Assembly (NCBI GenBank): GCA_019358945.1
Contig: JAHHIE010000003.1
Location: forward strand, 124,001-188,000
Length of the DNA: 64,000 bases
Reading direction: 5' to 3'
Source of the DNA: Stenomitos rutilans HA7619-LM2
GTDB lineage: Bacteria > Cyanobacteriota > Cyanobacteriia > Leptolyngbyales > Leptolyngbyaceae
Under the pieces are notes generated by a model. The model did not search any database and was not told where the DNA came from. It worked only from the letters and a program-made list of their open reading frames with translations. Below, piece by piece: positions 11,708-27,166 of this stretch (its first letter is position 1; each line of letters opens with the position of its first letter). The position numbers and the translations under genes were made by a program.

Positions 11708-13099
<1,392 letters not shown>

Positions 13100-16603: not shown

Positions 16604-18043
16604 TCACCCCTCATCTTTTCCCTTCCAGGTGCCATGAAAACCAGGTGGCACTACGTGAGGGAGAGCGAGTTTGCAGACAGGTTCCTCATCCAGACGATCG
16701 TGATCAAATATCCAGGCTTCGCTGCGATCGGTGTTGCCGTCATAGACAACGGTTAAAACCCAGCCACGATCGACCGTTTCAGCATCAGGGGCATAAATCG
16801 GTTCGCTGGCATAGCGGTTAGTGCCGCAATCGGCTTCGGTAAGCGTGGCGGTTTGGTAGTCGAAACGGGCGATCGTGCTAAACAGTTCGCGCTGCAGATC
16901 CGCACCTGGACGATGCAGTGACAGGTAGGTGTAGCGGGATGGTTCACCAACTTGTTGAGGCTGCACGGTGGGAAATTCACAACTGCGATCGACCACCTGA
17001 CTCGACTCCAACACCTTGCCCGTTTGAGGATCTAAGCGCAGTTGCCAGAGGGTGCCTTTTGCCAGCGTTTCCGTATGCCCGGTTGCCACTTCTTTGAGAA
17101 ATTGGTTGGTCTGGAAGTCTGGGTAGCGCACAAGGTCAAAGACGATCGAGCCATCCGCCAGTTCGCCCCCATTACCAAAGTGCCACTGATACCAGGGTTC
17201 CGCTCCGCTGCGGCTGACGACTTCAAGCGTGGTGCGATCAACCACAACGATTTCCGTCCCCTTCTCTGGTTGCCACGAAAGAGCCTCGCTGTAACTCTTG
17301 AGCATTGCCAACACCGGCAGGGCATTCAACCGCACAGGCGACACGCAAAAGATGAGGTACTGACCTGCCATCACGCAGTCATGAATGATAGGTAAGCCTT
17401 GCAGCGGGATTTTGTTGTGCTGCCGTACTTTGCCACTGGCATCGCTACGGTAGAGATTCAGCGTGCCATGTTGCCCAAAGCTAAGCCCAAAGTTGAAAAT
17501 ATCGCCCGTCTTTGGGTCGCGTTTGGGATGCGCTGAATAGGTGGCACCATCCAGGCCACCGAGATCATCCAGCCCTAATGTGTCGAGCGTGTCCAGTGTC
17601 AACGCATGGGGTAAACCACCTTCCCACAGCGCCAACAACTTATTGGGCAGCGCGATCACAGACGTATTGGCAACGTTTTTCAGTCCTTTATTAAATCGCT
17701 CCCACCAGTAACCGGGCGGCAGCATTGCATAGCCACTGTACAAAAACTTGTTTGCTCGCGTTTCTGCTTGATAACCGTCTGTTTGCACATAGCGATAGAC
17801 CCCTGTTGCGCCTGCATCGGTAAAATGAAGCCCCAGAATGCCACCATCGCCATCAAACCAGTGCCCCACTCGTTGTCCGCCCCGCTCTAGTAGCGCAGGC
17901 CCATTGCGATAAAGAGAACCGCGCAAGCCTAAAGGCACGGCACCCGCTAAAACAGTGAGCGGCACGGGACCAAATTCTATTGCAGGTTGCAGCACTGCCT
18001 TTGACCAAGCAGCAGTTTGAGTTGGTTTAGCGATCGTTATCAT
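16604..18043 (-). CDS. Carotenoid cleavage oxygenase (apocarotenoid 15,15'-oxygenase type)
   Basis: A 479-residue protein of the RPE65/carotenoid oxygenase family, close in length to the Synechocystis retinal-forming enzyme. The four iron-binding histidines are visible in SAHPKRDP, PIIHDCVM, QWHFGNGGE and PPGFHGTW. The family splits carotenoids or apocarotenoids with O2; retinal formation is the best-known outcome in cyanobacteria, but cleavage position cannot be read from sequence. The ATG at 18043 begins MITIAKPTQ. An array of six 21-bp repeats lies 100-225 bp upstream and could control it. Confidence 0.94.
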   Translation of the reverse strand: MITIAKPTQTAAWSKAVLQPAIEFGPVPLTVLAGAVPLGLRGSLYRNGPALLERGGQRVGHWFDGDGGILGLHFTDAGATGVYRYVQTDGYQAETRANKFLYSGYAMLPPGYWWERFNKGLKNVANTSVIALPNKLLALWEGGLPHALTLDTLDTLGLDDLGGLDGATYSAHPKRDPKTGDIFNFGLSFGQHGTLNLYRSDASGKVRQHNKIPLQGLPIIHDCVMAGQYLIFCVSPVRLNALPVLAMLKSYSEALSWQPEKGTEIVVVDRTTLEVVSRSGAEPWYQWHFGNGGELADGSIVFDLVRYPDFQTNQFLKEVATGHTETLAKGTLWQLRLDPQTGKVLESSQVVDRSCEFPTVQPQQVGEPSRYTYLSLHRPGADLQRELFSTIARFDYQTATLTEADCGTNRYASEPIYAPDAETVDRGWVLTVVYDGNTDRSEAWIFDHDRLDEEPVCKLALPHVVPPGFHGTWKGKDEG

Positions 18044-18142
18044 TGCTAAGCTCCGTATATCTAATGTTGGTAGATCTTGTCTTACTTGACAGTTTCTGTT
18101 GATTATTTGGCGATCGCAGGTAAGTCGATCACCCTGGTAATC

Positions 18143-18268
18143 CTTCTGTCATTCATCGCAATGCTTTTGTATCAACTCACACTCCTTTTGTATCGAGTTA
18201 CATTGCTTTTGCATTGAGTCACAATCCTTTTGCATCGAGTCACAATCCTTCTGCATCGTCTGACATTG
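18143..18268. repeat. Six 21-bp tandem repeats upstream of the carotenoid oxygenase gene
   Basis: Units start at 18143, 18164, 18185, 18206, 18227 and 18248, each exactly 21 bp, with a consensus close to CTTTTGCATCGAGTCACAATC. The central units differ by few bases while the outer two are more diverged. The 21-bp period equals two DNA turns, so equivalent bases fall on one helical face. There are no variable spacers, so it is not CRISPR. Confidence 0.88.
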
Positions 18269-18326
18269 CCATCGCGATTGCCCACAGTCCTTCAACCGTA
18301 AGCTAACGTGAGTTCGGGTTAGCTGT

Positions 18327-18386
18327 CAGACACTCAACTCCTGACTCCTGTCTTCTACCTCCTGACTCCTGATTCCTGACTCCCCT
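18327..18386. repeat. CTGACTC heptamer repeats after devA
   Basis: Tandem and near-tandem CTCCTGA/CTGACTC units lie between the oxygenase promoter region and the end of devA. Similar units recur at 19119-19140 just upstream of devA. Confidence 0.65.
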
Positions 18387-19109
18387 TCACGCCACTACAT
18401 TTCTTTGCGCCAATTGAGCATTCGTCGTGAGATAACCATCCTCCATCTGCACAATGCGATCAGCAATGTCGAGAATGCGATTGTCGTGCGTCACCAGCAA
18501 AATTGTGCAGCCCTGCTCTCTGGCAAGCCGCTGCATCAATTCCACCACATCGCGCCCCGATTGTTTATCCAGTGCAGCGGTTGGTTCATCTGCCAGCACC
18601 AGCTTGGGATGACTGACCAACGCACGCGCGATCGCCACTCGCTGCTTTTGCCCACCGGAGAGATATTCGGGGTAATAGGTCGATCGTTCCTCTAGCCCCA
18701 CCGCTGCCAGCATTGCCTCAGTTCTCGCATTCGCATTCGCCGTTGATAAGTCGTGCAGTTCCAACGACATCAGCACATTTTGTTTGGCGGTCAGAGACTT
18801 CAGTAAGTTATGCGCCTGAAAGATATAGCCAATGTTGCTCCGTAGCGCCACCATTTGCGCCTTCTTCGCGCCGCAAAGCTCCTGCCCCAACACCTGCAAA
18901 CTGCCGCTTTGAGTCGATCGCAAACTGCCAATCAACGATAGCAACGTCGTCTTACCCGACCCCGACGGCCCCGTCATAATGACAATTTCGCCCGCCTGAA
19001 TCTCTAAATTGATGTCGAACAACACCTGCTTTTGCAGTCGTCCCTGACCGTAATAGTGATTCAGAGCTTGAATTGAAACAACCGACTCAGCCTTATTGAG
19101 AGATTGCAT
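18387..19109 (-). CDS. devA: DevA-type ABC transporter ATPase
   Basis: A 240-residue ATPase with Walker A GPSGSGKTT, signature LSGGQKQRVAIARAL, Walker B LVLADEPTAALD and the switch His in LLVTHDNR. It belongs to the MacB/LolD/DevA group that powers export across the cell envelope with a DevC permease and DevB fusion protein, here the two preceding genes. The ATG at 19109 (MQSLNKAE) has a clear ribosome site GGAGAAG; the open frame extends upstream to 19181 only through repeat sequence. Confidence 0.94.
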   Translation of the reverse strand: MQSLNKAESVVSIQALNHYYGQGRLQKQVLFDINLEIQAGEIVIMTGPSGSGKTTLLSLIGSLRSTQSGSLQVLGQELCGAKKAQMVALRSNIGYIFQAHNLLKSLTAKQNVLMSLELHDLSTANANARTEAMLAAVGLEERSTYYPEYLSGGQKQRVAIARALVSHPKLVLADEPTAALDKQSGRDVVELMQRLAREQGCTILLVTHDNRILDIADRIVQMEDGYLTTNAQLAQRNVVA

Positions 19110-19171
19110 GGAACACTTCTCCTGACTCCTGACTCCTGATACCAATTTGAATTGAAAATGCGACACATCCT

Positions 19172-19200
19172 GTAGGGGCAAGGCATTGCCTTGCCCCTAC
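19172..19200. repeat. GTAGGGGC palindromic repeat between devC and devA
   Basis: A perfect 13-bp stem, GTAGGGGCAAGGC with GCCTTGCCCCTAC, and a 3-base loop. It belongs to a dispersed palindromic repeat type common in cyanobacterial genomes. A related copy lies at 54323-54348, also next to a devA gene. Confidence 0.8.
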
Positions 19201-19252: not shown

Positions 19253-20407
19253 CTAAAAAATATCCGCTGGATCAGCCGATCGCAGCTTCCGCGTCGCGAT
19301 CGCCCCCGACAGCAAACACATGCCGATCGTCAGCAGGAAAACGGTAGTGATGCGAGAGACCGTCATAAACAAAGGCAGGTTCGTCGCGCCTCTGGTCATG
19401 GCATACAGCCCGGTAGAAATCGCGGCTCCAGGCATAAAGCCCAGTACCGCTAGAATTAGCGCCTCTTGAAACACCACTATGAGCAAGTAGCGATCGCCAT
19501 ACCCGATCGCCTTGAGCGTGGCGTATTCTGCCAGATGCTCTGCTACATCGCTCGACAGAATTTGATAGACAATCACCGCGCCGACAATAAAGCCAATCAC
19601 TGTGCCCAGGCTGAAGATAAAGCCGATCGGCGTATTGTTTTGCCAATAGGCTTTTTCCAGTTCGGCAAACTCCGCCAGCGTCATCACTCGCACATCATTC
19701 GGCAAACTTGCCTGGAGGACTTGCTGCATCTGCGCTGGATCAACGCCCGGTGCTAGTGTAATCAACCCCGCGCTGACTTCTGACTGCTTGCGATCGGGAA
19801 ACAGACGCAGAAAGTTTTGATCGCTGGTAATCACATTGCCATCGGCTGCAAACGATGCTCCTACTAGAAACAAGCCTGCCACCTTGATTTTGCGGCTTCG
19901 CACTTCAGTGGGCACGACTTTGCCTGACTCCAGCGCCGCGATCATGCTGGTATAATTTCCCCGCGAACCCTGGTCAAACAACGCCATTTCGGGCATTTTG
20001 AGCTTGTCCAGGTTGCGATCGACCCCTGGCAGATTAAACACCGACTTTTCAGGATTGAAGCCCAAGAACAAAATGCCTTCATTGTGGCGTGTATCCGGGT
20101 TCTTCCATTCCCGCGAATCGGCGTACAGCGCCTCAACCGACTGCACCCCAGCAAAACTTCTTGCTTGATAGAGCCGTCGTCGCGGAAAGTTCGTCATGCT
20201 CACAATGTTGCGTGCCAGCGGACTGACCAACACCAGATCGGCTCGCAAACTGCGGTGCACCTGTGTATTGCTGTCATAGAGAGCTGTCCGAAAGCCCAAC
20301 TGCATAAACATCAGCATGTCAGCAAACGCAATGCCAGCCATTGCGACGAGGAGACGGTTGCGATCGCGGCTTACTTGCAGCCATGCGAGGGGAATTTTGC
20401 GTTTCAT
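19253..20407 (-). CDS. devC: DevC-type ABC transporter permease
   Basis: A 384-residue protein with an N-terminal membrane segment, a large external domain (residues ~45-260) and three C-terminal membrane helices, the FtsX/MacB-like topology of DevC. The start at 20407 (MKRKIPLAWLQ) matches the family. With DevB and DevA it forms an efflux complex that, in heterocyst-forming species, exports glycolipids together with TolC. The cargo here is unknown. It lies between devB (119 bp upstream) and devA. Confidence 0.93.
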   Translation of the reverse strand: MKRKIPLAWLQVSRDRNRLLVAMAGIAFADMLMFMQLGFRTALYDSNTQVHRSLRADLVLVSPLARNIVSMTNFPRRRLYQARSFAGVQSVEALYADSREWKNPDTRHNEGILFLGFNPEKSVFNLPGVDRNLDKLKMPEMALFDQGSRGNYTSMIAALESGKVVPTEVRSRKIKVAGLFLVGASFAADGNVITSDQNFLRLFPDRKQSEVSAGLITLAPGVDPAQMQQVLQASLPNDVRVMTLAEFAELEKAYWQNNTPIGFIFSLGTVIGFIVGAVIVYQILSSDVAEHLAEYATLKAIGYGDRYLLIVVFQEALILAVLGFMPGAAISTGLYAMTRGATNLPLFMTVSRITTVFLLTIGMCLLSGAIATRKLRSADPADIF

Positions 20408-20526
20408 TACATGTGTAGGATGGGGAGGCAATGAGGGCAAGGGGGAGTAAGGGGAGCAGAGGCGGCAGCAGGAGAGGCGTTTTCATTGATTCTGGCCCCT
20501 CTCACTTCTCACCTCACCTTTCACTT

Positions 20527-21621
20527 TCAGCCTTTAGCGATCTGCACCGTGACTTCGAGGTTAGTGAGACCAGCGACTTTACGGCTTCCGAGTTTGTCCA
20601 ACCGAATTTTGACTTCCACAATGCGCGCATCGGCATCAGCGGTTGGGTTCGTGTCCAGCACGCCTTTCTTCTGGATTTGCAGCCCAATTTCATCGACCGT
20701 ACCGCGCACTTCACCGCTAAACGCGCTGCTAGTGATGGTGGCAGATTGACCCCTGCGAACGGCTTGAATGTCGCTTTCGTAGATTTCAGCCACGACATAC
20801 ATCTGGTCAGTTTGCCCCAGTTCTGCAATGCCCTGGTCGCCCACAATTTCGCCTGACCAGGTATGAATTTTGAGCATTTGCCCATCACGGGGCGATCGCA
20901 CCAATGCCAGAGCCAGATCTGCCTGTGCCTGCTTGACGGCGGTTTGTGCGCTTACCACCTCCGCTTCTGCGGCAGAAACATCGACCGGACGCACCTCCGC
21001 CACGCTGTTCAAGGTATTTTTGGCCTGTTGCAGTTGCGCTCTAGTCGTATCTGCTACCAATTGCTTGCTGTCTCGTGACGAAGCAGAAATTGCGCCCTGC
21101 TCGTAAAGTCTCTGGTAGCGCTGGGCTTCAAGCTGGGCGTTGTTTAACTCTGCTTGCAGCCGTGCGATCGCGGCGGCCTGTGCGCCAATTTCACCCGTTT
21201 TTGCCCCTGCTTTTACCTGGGCCACCTTCGTGAGCGCAATCTGCACATCCTGTTTGGCTTTTTCCAACGCGGCTTGCAGACGATCGTGGGAATCCAGCAC
21301 CGCAATGACCTGTCCCGCTTGCACCCGATCGCCTCGCCTCACCAGCAGTTGCTCCACCCGGCTACCCTGACTCGATGCTGCTAGGCGAATGACTTCGCCC
21401 TGGGGTTCCAATCGACCCAAAGCCGTTACGCTGGTGGCCCCTGCATTGACTGGCAAAGCCTGAGCCACTCTTGGAGGAGCCACTGCCAGCCGCGAAAAAC
21501 CGTAGAACAGACAGGCGGCCGCGATCGTCCCTCCAATTGCCGCTACGATGAGCATTCGTCGATTCGTTACTTTAGAAAGTGGCTGACCAACCCCGCTCGT
21601 TTTAGGTGTCGCTGTTTGCAT
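20527..21621 (-). CDS. devB: DevB-type periplasmic membrane-fusion protein
   Basis: A 364-residue HlyD/DevB-family adaptor: one N-terminal membrane anchor (residues ~23-43), the biotinyl-lipoyl half-motif around GRLEPQGEVIRL, a long coiled-coil hairpin (residues ~110-215) and the beta-barrel part with DVSAAEAEV... and GDQGIAELG. It connects DevC to the outer-membrane TolC channel. It is the first gene of devBCA and faces the PadR-family regulator; a 19-bp inverted repeat lies between them. Confidence 0.95.
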   Translation of the reverse strand: MQTATPKTSGVGQPLSKVTNRRMLIVAAIGGTIAAACLFYGFSRLAVAPPRVAQALPVNAGATSVTALGRLEPQGEVIRLAASSQGSRVEQLLVRRGDRVQAGQVIAVLDSHDRLQAALEKAKQDVQIALTKVAQVKAGAKTGEIGAQAAAIARLQAELNNAQLEAQRYQRLYEQGAISASSRDSKQLVADTTRAQLQQAKNTLNSVAEVRPVDVSAAEAEVVSAQTAVKQAQADLALALVRSPRDGQMLKIHTWSGEIVGDQGIAELGQTDQMYVVAEIYESDIQAVRRGQSATITSSAFSGEVRGTVDEIGLQIQKKGVLDTNPTADADARIVEVKIRLDKLGSRKVAGLTNLEVTVQIAKG

Positions 21622-21712: not shown

Positions 21713-21760
21713 ATTCAACTATTTGCATATGTCAATCAGTGCATATGCAAATAGTTGAAT
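21713..21760. promoter_or_regulatory. 19-bp perfect inverted repeat, likely PadR operator
   Basis: Arms 21713-21731 and 21742-21760 are exact complements with a 10-base spacer; the core contains TTTGCATATG and CATATGCAAA. PadR regulators usually bind ATGT/ACAT-like dyads in their own promoters. This one lies in the devB-padR intergenic region and could control both directions. Confidence 0.8.
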
Positions 21761-21811
21761 TAATTTATGTCTGAGCCGATTAAGTATTTGAGCCAATTAA
21801 GGAACGAACCG

Positions 21812-22366
21812 ATGGCACTTACCCACGCAATTTTGGCACTTCTCGTCAACTGCCCTCAAAGCGGGTACGACCTCACCAAAAACTTTGAGGAGTCTGTAGG
21901 CTGCTTCTGGAAAGCCACTCACCAGCAGATCTACCGTGAACTTGCCAAACTTGAAGCGCAGGGATGGGTACAGCCCACCACCGTCTTACAGGAAGGTCGT
22001 CCTGATAAGAAGGTCTACGGCATCACAGAGCTTGGGCAGCAAAAGCTTGCCACCTGGGTTGCGGCTCCCTGCGACACAATGGCGATTAAAGAAGAACTGC
22101 TAGTCAAAGTGTTTGTCGGTGCTCTAGTGTCAACGCCTGTCATTCAGCAGCAGCTTCTCCAGCATCGTCAAATTCATACCCATCAGCTTGCTCACTATCG
22201 TCAAATCGAAGCTGTGGAGTTTCAGAACTTCCATGCCCTCACGCTGGAAAGTAAACTGCAATATCTGGTGCTGCGTCGGGGCATTCGTTACGAAACCGAT
22301 TGGATCGGTTGGTGTGATGAAGCGCTGGCCTTGCTGCATGAGGAGACAGAAGGAAAGGAGAAATGA
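21812..22366 (+). CDS. PadR-family transcriptional regulator
   Basis: The N-terminal winged helix (MALTHAILALLVNCPQSGYDL, ...VYGITELGQQKL) and the C-terminal helical dimerisation domain (Vir_act_alpha_C type) make a normal 184-residue PadR protein. Two starts are possible: 21767, with no ribosome site and only 6 bases from the inverted repeat, and 21812, with AAGGA eight bases upstream and the usual family beginning. The second is preferred. It is divergent from devBCA and likely represses it until a ligand binds. Confidence 0.92.
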   Translation: MALTHAILALLVNCPQSGYDLTKNFEESVGCFWKATHQQIYRELAKLEAQGWVQPTTVLQEGRPDKKVYGITELGQQKLATWVAAPCDTMAIKEELLVKVFVGALVSTPVIQQQLLQHRQIHTHQLAHYRQIEAVEFQNFHALTLESKLQYLVLRRGIRYETDWIGWCDEALALLHEETEGKEK

Positions 22367-24298: not shown

Positions 24299-27166
24299 TT
24301 GCTGAACTTGTTGATCAATCGTCGCCAAAAAGCTGCTGTGAAAGGATTATCTGAAAAAGTTGTTGCTGGTGGGTTCACTTTGGCACTGCTGTTACTAGGC
24401 GGTGTTGGCGTTGAGTCCTATCTCAGTGTCAACAAACTGACCGAGAGTCAGCGATTGATTAACCACACGCACCATGTTTTAAACACCCTCAACCAAATTT
24501 CCAACAGCTTAGAAAATGCCGATCGCGGGCGACGGGCCTACTTTGCCGCAAAGGGTGAAGACGAATTGACCACCTGGCGTGCAGGCGTACAAACAACGAA
24601 ACAAGCGATCGCCGATACCAGGCAACTCACAGCCGATAACCCAAAGCAGCAGCAGCGCTTAAACGAAGTCGAGCCACTCATCACCGAACGGTTAGCGTTG
24701 TTTCAGCGCTTCATCACACTGGTGCGCCAAAACAAGCTGGGACTGGTCGAACAGAATGCCATCCTTAAACAGAACCTCTTCTTGCAGCAGCAAATCCAAC
24801 TAAAGCTGCAAGTGATGAAACAAACTGAACAAACGCTGTTTCAACAACGATCAGATGACATCGATCGCGTCGTGGCGCAGGCGATCATTGTGGCTGGCAT
24901 CGGCTACGGCGCAAGCTTTTGCTTGCTAACCAGCATCTTTTTTCTACTTCAAAGAGAAATCCGCTCCCGTAAAGCGGCCGAAGTTGCGCTGCAGAAGCAT
25001 GCCGAAGACGTTTACGACCTGTATAATCATGCACCCTGCGGCTATCACTCACTGGATGACACAGGCACCATTATTCGCATCAACGATACAGAGCTAGCGT
25101 GGCTAGGATATACCCGCGATGAGATCATTGGCAAGAAGGCGTTTAGCGAACTGACGACCGCTCAAAGTGCTTTAGTGTCTCAGGAAAAGTTTCCTCTTTT
25201 CAAAGAGCAGGGCTGGATCAATGATGTCGAATTTGAACTCGTTTGCAAAGATGGCACCATTTTGCCTGTCAGTCTGAGCGCAACAGCCATTAAAGATGCG
25301 GCGGGCAATTTTGTGATGAGCCGCTCGACGCTGTTTAATATCAGCGACCGGAAACGCAGCGAAGCCGAACGCAAGCAAACCCAAATCGCGCTGCAACAGG
25401 CAAACGAACAATTAGAAGCCAGAGTGCAGGCACGCACAGTCGAACTGTCCCAGGTAAATGCATTACTTCGTAGTGAACTGATCGAGCGCAAACAGGCGGA
25501 GCAGGCCTTATTAGAAAGCGAAAAGCAACTTCGCCTGATTACCGATGCCTTACCCGTACTCATCTCCTACGTTGATGCAGAACAGCGCTACCGCTTCAAC
25601 AATCAAGCGTATGAGCAATGGTTTGGCTACGAGTGGGCAATGCTTCAGGGCCAGTACCTCAAGGATGTTTTAGGGGAAACGGCTTACCAGGCAATTAAAC
25701 CCCACGTTGAGGCCGCGCTATCAGGGCAGCAAGTCAACTACGAAAGCTATGTGCCTTACAAAGAGGGTGGCAAGCGTTGGGTGAGTGCTGTTTACATTCC
25801 CGATTTTGGCGAAGGAACTGTAAAGGGTTATTTTGCGCTTATCAGTGACATTACTGATCGCAAACAAGCCGAAGCCGCACTACGTGATAGTGAGCAGCGC
25901 TTGAGCTTGGCCGTCGAAGGTTCAGGCATGGCGACGTGGGATATTGATTTAGCAACAGGGAAGGCGCTCTGGTCAACCCAACACTTCAAGCTGCTGGGGT
26001 ATGAACCCGTGCCCAGTGGCGAGGCCACATTAGATATGTGGCGCAGTTGCGCGCATCCCGATGATCTAGAGTGGGTGTCGCTGGCAGCAGAACGAGCAAT
26101 CCAAGACCGATCGCTCTATCGTTCCGAGCATCGCATTATTCGCGCTGATAACGGGCAGATCGTCTGGCTAGCAGCGTTTGGTCGGGCACTCTACAACGAG
26201 GCAGGACAGGCAGTTCGCTTTCTAGGCATCATTCTTAATATTACCGATCGCAAGCAGACAGAATTAGCTCTCCAGCAGGCTAAGGAAGGGCTAGAACTAC
26301 AGGTGCAGGAGCGCACAACCGCGCTCAGACAAACGAATGACGACTTGCGACGATCAAATCAAGAGCTAGAACAGTTTGCCTATGTTGCTTCTCACGATTT
26401 ACAAGAACCGTTGCGTGCCGTTATGGGCTACACCCAACTGCTAACTCAAGACTACCGCGATCGCTTAGACGAAACAGCCCTAAGCTACGGAACCTACATC
26501 GTTGAAGGCGCAGCGCGGATGCAGCAATTGATTCAGGATCTATTGCACTACTCGCGGGCAGGCACTCGTGACCTTGTTTTTGAACCCACAGATGGCAATG
26601 CAGTCTTAGAGCAAGTGCTCAACACCTTACACATTGCGATCGCTGAAAGCAACGCTACCATCACTTATGATCCTCTACCAACCGTACTTGCCGATAGAAG
26701 CCAATTAGCGCAACTCTTTCAAAACCTCATTGGCAACGCCATTAAATTCTGCCGCGAAGGGTCGCCTCAGGTACACATCAGCGCGAGGAGAGAGGAGAGA
26801 GGAGAGAGGAGAGAGGAGTCTGAGGAAGCAGGGGAAGAAATGCAAGATCTAGAACTCAAAACTCAAAACTCAAAACTCAAAACTCTCCTTGACATCCCAT
26901 CCCTATTACCCGATACTCTCAACCCCGCATGGCTTTTCTCCGTCCGCGATCAGGGCATTGGCATCAAGCCGCGCTATCTAGAGCGTATTTTTGAAATCTT
27001 CAAACGGCTCCACACGCGTACTGAGTTCCCAGGGACAGGGATTGGGTTAGCCATCTGTAAAAAGATTGTCGATCGACATGGTGGGCAGATCTGGGCAATA
27101 TCAGAATTGGGGAACGGCACCACTTTTTACTTTACAATTCCTTCTGCTGACGATTCAGACCCATGA
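24299..27166 (+). CDS. Multi-PAS sensor histidine kinase with repeat insertion
   Basis: A 955-residue membrane kinase: a helix at ~20-45, a CHASE3-like extracytoplasmic domain (residues ~50-190), a second helix (~195-220), three PAS/PAC units (about 240-355, 410-520, 530-660), a HisKA domain with the Cph1-type H-box [14 protein letters not shown], and a HATPase with [15 protein letters not shown] and [10 protein letters not shown]. Between the N and G1 boxes a stretch encoded by GAGGAGA and ACTCAAA heptamers (26784-26890) adds some 40 residues. The start is a TTG at 24299 without a clear ribosome site, so the true N-terminus is uncertain. It overlaps the next receiver gene by ATGA. Confidence 0.94.
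26784..26890. repeat. Heptamer-repeat insert inside the PAS kinase gene
   Basis: Five tandem GAGGAGA units (26784-26818) are followed by a short unique link and ACTCAAA heptamers (about 26853-26884). It is translated as [11 protein letters not shown]...LKTQNSKLK within the ATP-binding domain. Confidence 0.87.

Follow-up and report, generated by a model that had tools for sequence, protein, structure and literature searches.

The array and its surroundings

The window analysed here is a stretch of 64,000 nucleotides from Stenomitos rutilans HA7619-LM2 (contig JAHHIE010000003.1, positions 124,001 to 188,000). A carotenoid oxygenase gene of the RPE65 family (PF03055, E 2e-130) occupies positions 16604-18043 on the minus strand. 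Upstream of its ATG lie a leader or promoter stretch (18044-18142) and an array of six 21-bp repeats (18143-18268, 100-225 bp from the ATG), both on the same strand. The next gene upstream, also on this strand, encodes a DevA-family ABC exporter ATPase (18387-19181, TIGR02982), whose translation may actually begin at an internal ATG. It is preceded by genes for a DevC permease (19253-20440, minus strand, TIGR01185) and a DevB-family membrane fusion protein (20527-21621, minus strand, TIGR02971). In same-strand order, a DevBCA exporter cluster comes before the array and the oxygenase gene after it, which agrees with the first-pass annotation, where the array was placed before a carotenoid oxygenase gene. 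A PadR-family regulator gene (PF03551, PF10400) lies on the plus strand at 21767-22366 and was considered as a weak candidate for the binder. No sigma-70-like promoter was found in a simple scan of 17950-18500.

The array was delimited by Tandem Repeats Finder (TRF), lag identity and a chained scan. Its six units of 21 bp abut head to tail with zero indels, and the minus-strand consensus is approximately R-C-A-W-W-N-S-S-A-W-T-G-Y-N8. TRF reported 18159-18258 with a period of 21, 0% indels and a score of 123, the highest among 53 rows for the window. The best lag-21 identity was 0.80 (in 84 bp), against a ceiling of 0.52 for any period of 15-30 when the intergenic stretch was dinucleotide-shuffled 1000 times. 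Units 4 and 5 are identical at 20/21 bases, whereas unit 1 has only 11-12/21 bases in common with any other unit. The first-pass annotation had described six units at an exact 21-bp spacing, phased by two helical turns and most alike in the interior, and all of this was confirmed. By chained scanning the array comprises seven units, the outermost degenerate, over about 18129-18275. A CRISPR array has unique spacers between its repeats; the units here are contiguous, without spacers, and the array is therefore not a CRISPR, as had been stated before.

A dispersed repeat family

The array alone was used as a BLASTN query and gave matches in 8/39 genomes, the window's genome counted. Most of these matches sit elsewhere in the genomes, away from the oxygenase locus. 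A sequence-only profile of 63 positions (three units), termed R1, was then used; the window array was among its seeds, and its own match to the profile and to the CA..A.TG core is that of a seed. R1 matched 6/7 genomes of the genus and 39/291 genomes of the class, with several loci in many of them. A column-permuted control profile matched 0/7 genus genomes; in 8 genomes that bear arrays it gave two matches, both weak. The profile search found no R1 match in one genome of the genus (G003), and 3 to 21 matches in each of its genus mates. The window array belongs to a family of 21-bp tandem arrays scattered over cyanobacterial genomes.

Sixty regions were picked from the better BLASTN and R1 profile matches rather than from all matches, and 59 were classed, one region (L071) having given no array. 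By context, 24 arrays lay between codirectional genes, 14 between divergent and 8 between convergent ones; 8 fell within a coding gene and 5 at contig edges. Convergent gaps hold 8/46 of the classified intergenic arrays, and promoter-side placement is not clearly preferred. Among the neighbours elsewhere are valS, identified by eye from the start of its sequence, and, in the window's genome, two genes assigned by Pfam, one for a pentapeptide-repeat protein and one for the small subunit of acetolactate synthase. Among shared neighbour genes, the NACHT gene cluster alone spans all three families and holds coding copies; the other clusters are small.

Phage or plasmid origin was considered and set aside. 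BLASTN, which is weak for diverged units, found 0 matching records in the phage collection and 1/72,556 in the plasmid collection, the latter a cyanobacterial replicon. Iterons and operator arrays of plasmid Rep and partition proteins are direct repeats of about 20-22 bp, spaced about two turns apart and bound by protein dimers. R1 resembles them in being a direct repeat of about two turns. It differs in occupying several chromosomal loci per genome with no replication-gene link seen; in the subset of neighbours that were named, the genes are metabolic, transport or NACHT genes.

The oxygenase locus across genomes

One chaining rule was applied to the region before the oxygenase gene in seven genomes of the genus, yielding 12, 7, 7, 5, 0, 0 and 0 units (G006 12, the window's genome G000 7, G002 7, G001 5). 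In these four array-bearing genomes the array-to-ATG distance was 85-104 bp by chained scan. The same scan found no array at the oxygenase locus of G003, G004 and G005, G005 having two partial units by eye. In G005 the array is lost, yet the roughly 90 bp nearest the ATG are similar by eye to the last 90 bp or so of the window leader. Beyond this set, an R1 array was found within 700 bp upstream at 4/80 public oxygenase loci, three of them in the same genus and one in Nostoc sp. LPT, where it stands about 100 bp before the gene. The scores of these upstreams were 88-302, against at most 13.3 in shuffled upstreams.

Per-unit identity was 0.63-0.68 between orthologous arrays, 0.66 within one array and 0.63 to other arrays of the same genome. 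As these values are about equal, the location of the array persists while its letters turn over. Identity to arrays of other genomes was lower (0.56-0.57 against 0.63 in the same genome). The unit counts mean that unit number changes freely between sister species, although repeats may be collapsed in draft assemblies.

The first-pass annotation had read the array as a dedicated operator array of the oxygenase gene, controlling retinal or apocarotenoid formation, and had proposed a search upstream of orthologues. That search gave a divided answer: the array is in the same place in 4/7 genus genomes and, at about the same distance, in Nostoc sp. LPT, but it is missing from 3/7 and is present at only 4/80 public loci. 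The annotation had also held that a unit number changing freely without effect would count against its reading, and as far as unit number is concerned, this is what was observed. An operator array of a carotenoid gene would be expected at most orthologues and at no unrelated genes, and R1 arrays occupy many unrelated loci. Control of retinal or apocarotenoid formation is not supported, since the family occurs at unrelated genes, in convergent gaps (8/59) and in coding sequence (8/59), and since three genus genomes lack the array before the gene. Being dispersed in front of, behind and inside unrelated genes, the family is not a dedicated carotenoid-gene switch.

A further point in favour of the operator was weighed. 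Upstream 21-bp arrays were found at 5/58 oxygenase genes (those of the 80 that passed a gene-start filter) against 6/400 other genes, 3 of these 6 sharing the array with an oxygenase gene. The comparison was made after the matches had been seen, and in a further Nostocaceae sample it gave 0/20 oxygenase upstreams against 2/177 other genes. Some loci of a further locus set are probably of the same species as loci among the 80. The apparent enrichment goes back to about three independent events and is not convincing, and for this reason no attraction of 21-bp arrays to oxygenase promoters is claimed. In a Nostoc/Komarekiella clade an unrelated 21-bp array of the GAACTCGGAACTTCGTGCTCA type, with a 7-bp sub-period, lies directly before the oxygenase gene (L197:3575-3834, L198:3454-3708, L202:3619-3834); its position speaks for the operator reading. 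Taken with the evidence above, that reading is improbable.

Constraint on the unit

Mismatch between units of one array was determined by position from 286 interior units of 48 intergenic arrays, first and last units dropped. It was 0.04-0.11 at positions 2, 3, 9, 11 and 12, and 0.28-0.54 elsewhere. These five positions had a mismatch of 0.069, against 0.403 for the others, and were the lower in 42/42 intergenic arrays with three or more interior units, smaller arrays being dropped. The fixed core of the unit is CA-N5-A-N1-TG, and the whole unit is a near-palindrome, RCAWW-N3-AWTGY, followed by 8 bp. The half-site AWTGY at positions 9-13 was present in 87% of 288 units. Substitutions at positions 5, 10 and 20 were mostly A/T swaps and those at positions 7, 8 and 16 mostly C/G swaps; such swaps prevailed over transitions, a bias unlike that of plain mutation. 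Of 377 single-unit steps, 359 were exactly 21 bp, 15 were 20 bp, 2 were 22 bp and 1 was 23 bp, and 9 further steps skipped one or two units. Because a motif model served both to find the arrays and to set their register, likeness between arrays is partly built in; the contrast between positions inside one array is less exposed to this bias. From these patterns, the letters of R1 arrays look to be under constraint at the DNA level. The per-position profile suits a protein-binding site, and protein binding is possible.

Alternatively, the array could be a neutral or selfish minisatellite. The 21-bp repeat would then spread and expand through slippage and recombination and serve no function in the cell, and the shared core would reflect common ancestry and homogenisation. 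Consistent with this are the copy numbers at the oxygenase locus (12 to 0 at one locus), the genome-specific flavours seen in per-unit identity, the arrays in convergent gaps and inside genes, and, in Nostoc sp. LPT, a young array whose units are nearly identical (L195, lag-21 identity 0.96). Against it stand the five positions fixed in every one of the 42 arrays with the others differing at 0.40, the swap bias and a register nearly without indels. We consider this explanation a serious contender, if a somewhat doubtful one.

The near-palindromic unit also recalls a structured RNA leader, a string of small hairpins. Positions 4 and 10 covary, with 159/288 Watson-Crick pairs against 123 in global and 148 in within-array shuffles (p 0.015). 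However, pair 1-13 had fewer pairs than shuffles, fold z-scores were -0.82 and -0.86 for the two strands, no Rfam match was found, and the array did not qualify as a structured leader. An RNA role is highly improbable. CsrA-like GGA hairpins were rejected as well; GGA is not kept, and position 8 is C or G. Intrinsic bending was not supported, because the 10.5-bp A/T rhythm in the unit was no greater than in permuted columns (p 0.52).

The motif AWTGY-N8-RCAWT resembles the PadR consensus, ATGT-N8-ACAT, and the units might then be operators of the neighbouring PadR-family regulator. Its gene is three genes away from the array; near-matches lie within the array (18188-18203) and ahead of the PadR gene (21729-21744), one in each place, and in G005 a PadR-like gene stands directly upstream of the oxygenase gene (by eye). 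G005 has no array, however, and the window holds 16 near-matches to the consensus, against 22.7 expected by chance. The array did not qualify as a set of PadR operators, and it would be surprising if it were one. The letters of the consensus were not found in the accessible parts of PMC4534193 and PMC6457526.

Copies inside genes

In-frame array copies were found in a NACHT-ATPase gene, making up 8/59 arrays (G000, G001, G002, G004, G006, G008, G010 and G074). Pfam, run on two copies (L086, L120), identifies the gene product as a NACHT-domain ATPase carrying HEAT repeats. The arrays lie between the GSGKTT motif (Walker A) and the next strand and encode heptapeptides such as DTKGLQA. The NACHT-HEAT genes with arrays (L086, L089, L094, L099, L115, L118, L119 and L120) have an NNH2 N-terminal domain, and the length of the array differs per species.

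Codon positions were compared in the six coding copies with three or more interior units. Mismatch was lowest at third positions (0.26), followed by second (0.32) and first (0.44), and the position profile correlated with the intergenic one (r 0.79). Third positions that vary least, together with a profile like that of intergenic arrays, point to upkeep at the level of DNA, not protein.

These copies bear on the idea that the family codes for protein, each 21-bp unit supplying the seven codons of a heptapeptide repeat. Another coding example, found in two genomes of Nostocaceae (L323, L318), is a GGxNPFA heptapeptide-repeat protein whose gene lies upstream of that for the oxygenase; its repeat DNA is R1-like in L323 (R1 chain score 131) and not in L318. 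Both cases favour the idea, as does the frame QKxCDSM, in which third positions were least informative (first 85 units). On the other side, steps of 20, 22 and 23 bp break the frame in several arrays, stops occur in 5/6 frames across 85 units, and third positions are the most conserved in the one stop-free frame. In frame 1 the window stretch is interrupted by many stops, and no open reading frame of at least 80 aa covers the array. A coding origin is very unlikely.

The 21-bp period

A motif-free census was made by lag identity for all periods of 5-60 in 2.35 Mb in total. The samples were 685 kb from 80 oxygenase loci, 400 kb from each of three genomes (G202, G107 and G003) and 464 kb from the genome of the window, the last mostly contigs known to hold arrays, with known R1 array places left out save the window's own. 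Period-21 regions that were noncoding-like, in the sole sense that no long open frame traverses them, numbered 9, 4, 1, 2 and 6 in these samples, respectively (22 in total). Periods 19, 20, 22 and 23 together gave 1 such region. Period-7 regions numbered 27, 46, 0, 11 and 28 in the same order, and 7 bp was the commonest noncoding period in 4/5 samples. Block-shuffled control sequence (2.29 Mb) produced 4 regions over all periods. In census DNA, 21 bp is a sharp preferred period of noncoding arrays. The G107 stretches (L224-L243) hold few 7- or 21-bp arrays and many regions of period 15 to 18, both coding and noncoding.

The 21-bp arrays were of several unrelated sequences, some with a 7-bp sub-period (GAACTCG type) and others, R1 included, without one. 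At one Nostoc intergenic site, two species carry R1-type arrays (L187:3131-3244, L196:3105-3252), and the 21-bp array of a third species is of unrelated sequence (L201:2593-2876). Filamentous cyanobacteria may thus have a class of noncoding arrays defined by an exact 21-bp period, on which a phase-reading DNA-binding or packing system would dock and keep the spacing as the letters drift. The basis for this reading is the period shared by unrelated unit sequences, the single site with unrelated arrays and the near-empty neighbouring periods; we put it forward tentatively and think it rather unlikely.

Comparison with described repeats

Short tandemly repeated repetitive (STRR) sequences of cyanobacteria have 7-bp units. 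Like R1, they form dispersed noncoding tandem arrays in filamentous cyanobacteria. Unlike them, R1 has a unit of 21 bp, and its units diverge while five bases stay fixed. The window array is not an STRR sequence, its lag-7 identity being 0.25 against 0.75 at lag 21, and no 7-bp sub-period was found in R1 arrays L125, L126, L187, L195 and that of the window (lag-7 identity 0.20-0.27). The window also holds many 7-bp tandem arrays by TRF (1281-1321, 12395-12427, 26785-26818, 26853-26885 and others), which are of a heptamer type familiar from such genomes.

Long tandemly repeated repetitive (LTRR) sequences have a unit of about 37 bp and are set apart from the 21-bp R1 by description, not by letters. 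They are like R1 in being longer-unit intergenic tandem repeats, described from Nostoc PCC 7120 (PMC2408588, which cites Masepohl, 1996). Direct repeats of the heptamer TAACTGA, from Beggiatoaceae and cyanobacteria, share with R1 dispersed intergenic arrays and a patchy distribution; they differ in an invariant 7-bp unit, which in the Beggiatoa genome studied mostly stands directly ahead of a start codon (PMC4679880). No description of a 21-bp cyanobacterial array was found in searches of an open-access literature collection, and no 21-bp family is described in the accessible parts of PMC4679880, PMC2408588, PMC6344855, PMC4692102, PMC4534193 and PMC6457526.

Interpretation

The R1 family is dispersed, labile in copy number and constrained in sequence. 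Each unit would be a putative site for a dimeric DNA-binding protein, and the exact two-turn spacing would align the sites on one face of the DNA. With its sites so aligned, an array could act as a many-fold docking platform, serving nucleoid or chromosome organisation or broad regulation, and the number of units would rise and fall through slippage or unequal recombination. We give about even chances to this account, in which the window array is a docking platform of a dispersed family and not a carotenoid operator.

We know of no settled function for cyanobacterial tandem repeats. The fixed two-turn register, the five-base core and the in-frame coding copies offer a concrete handle on one such family, and the core predicts a binder. 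The natural losses between sister species at the oxygenase locus provide ready-made comparisons, and G003 is a natural comparison genome without R1 arrays.
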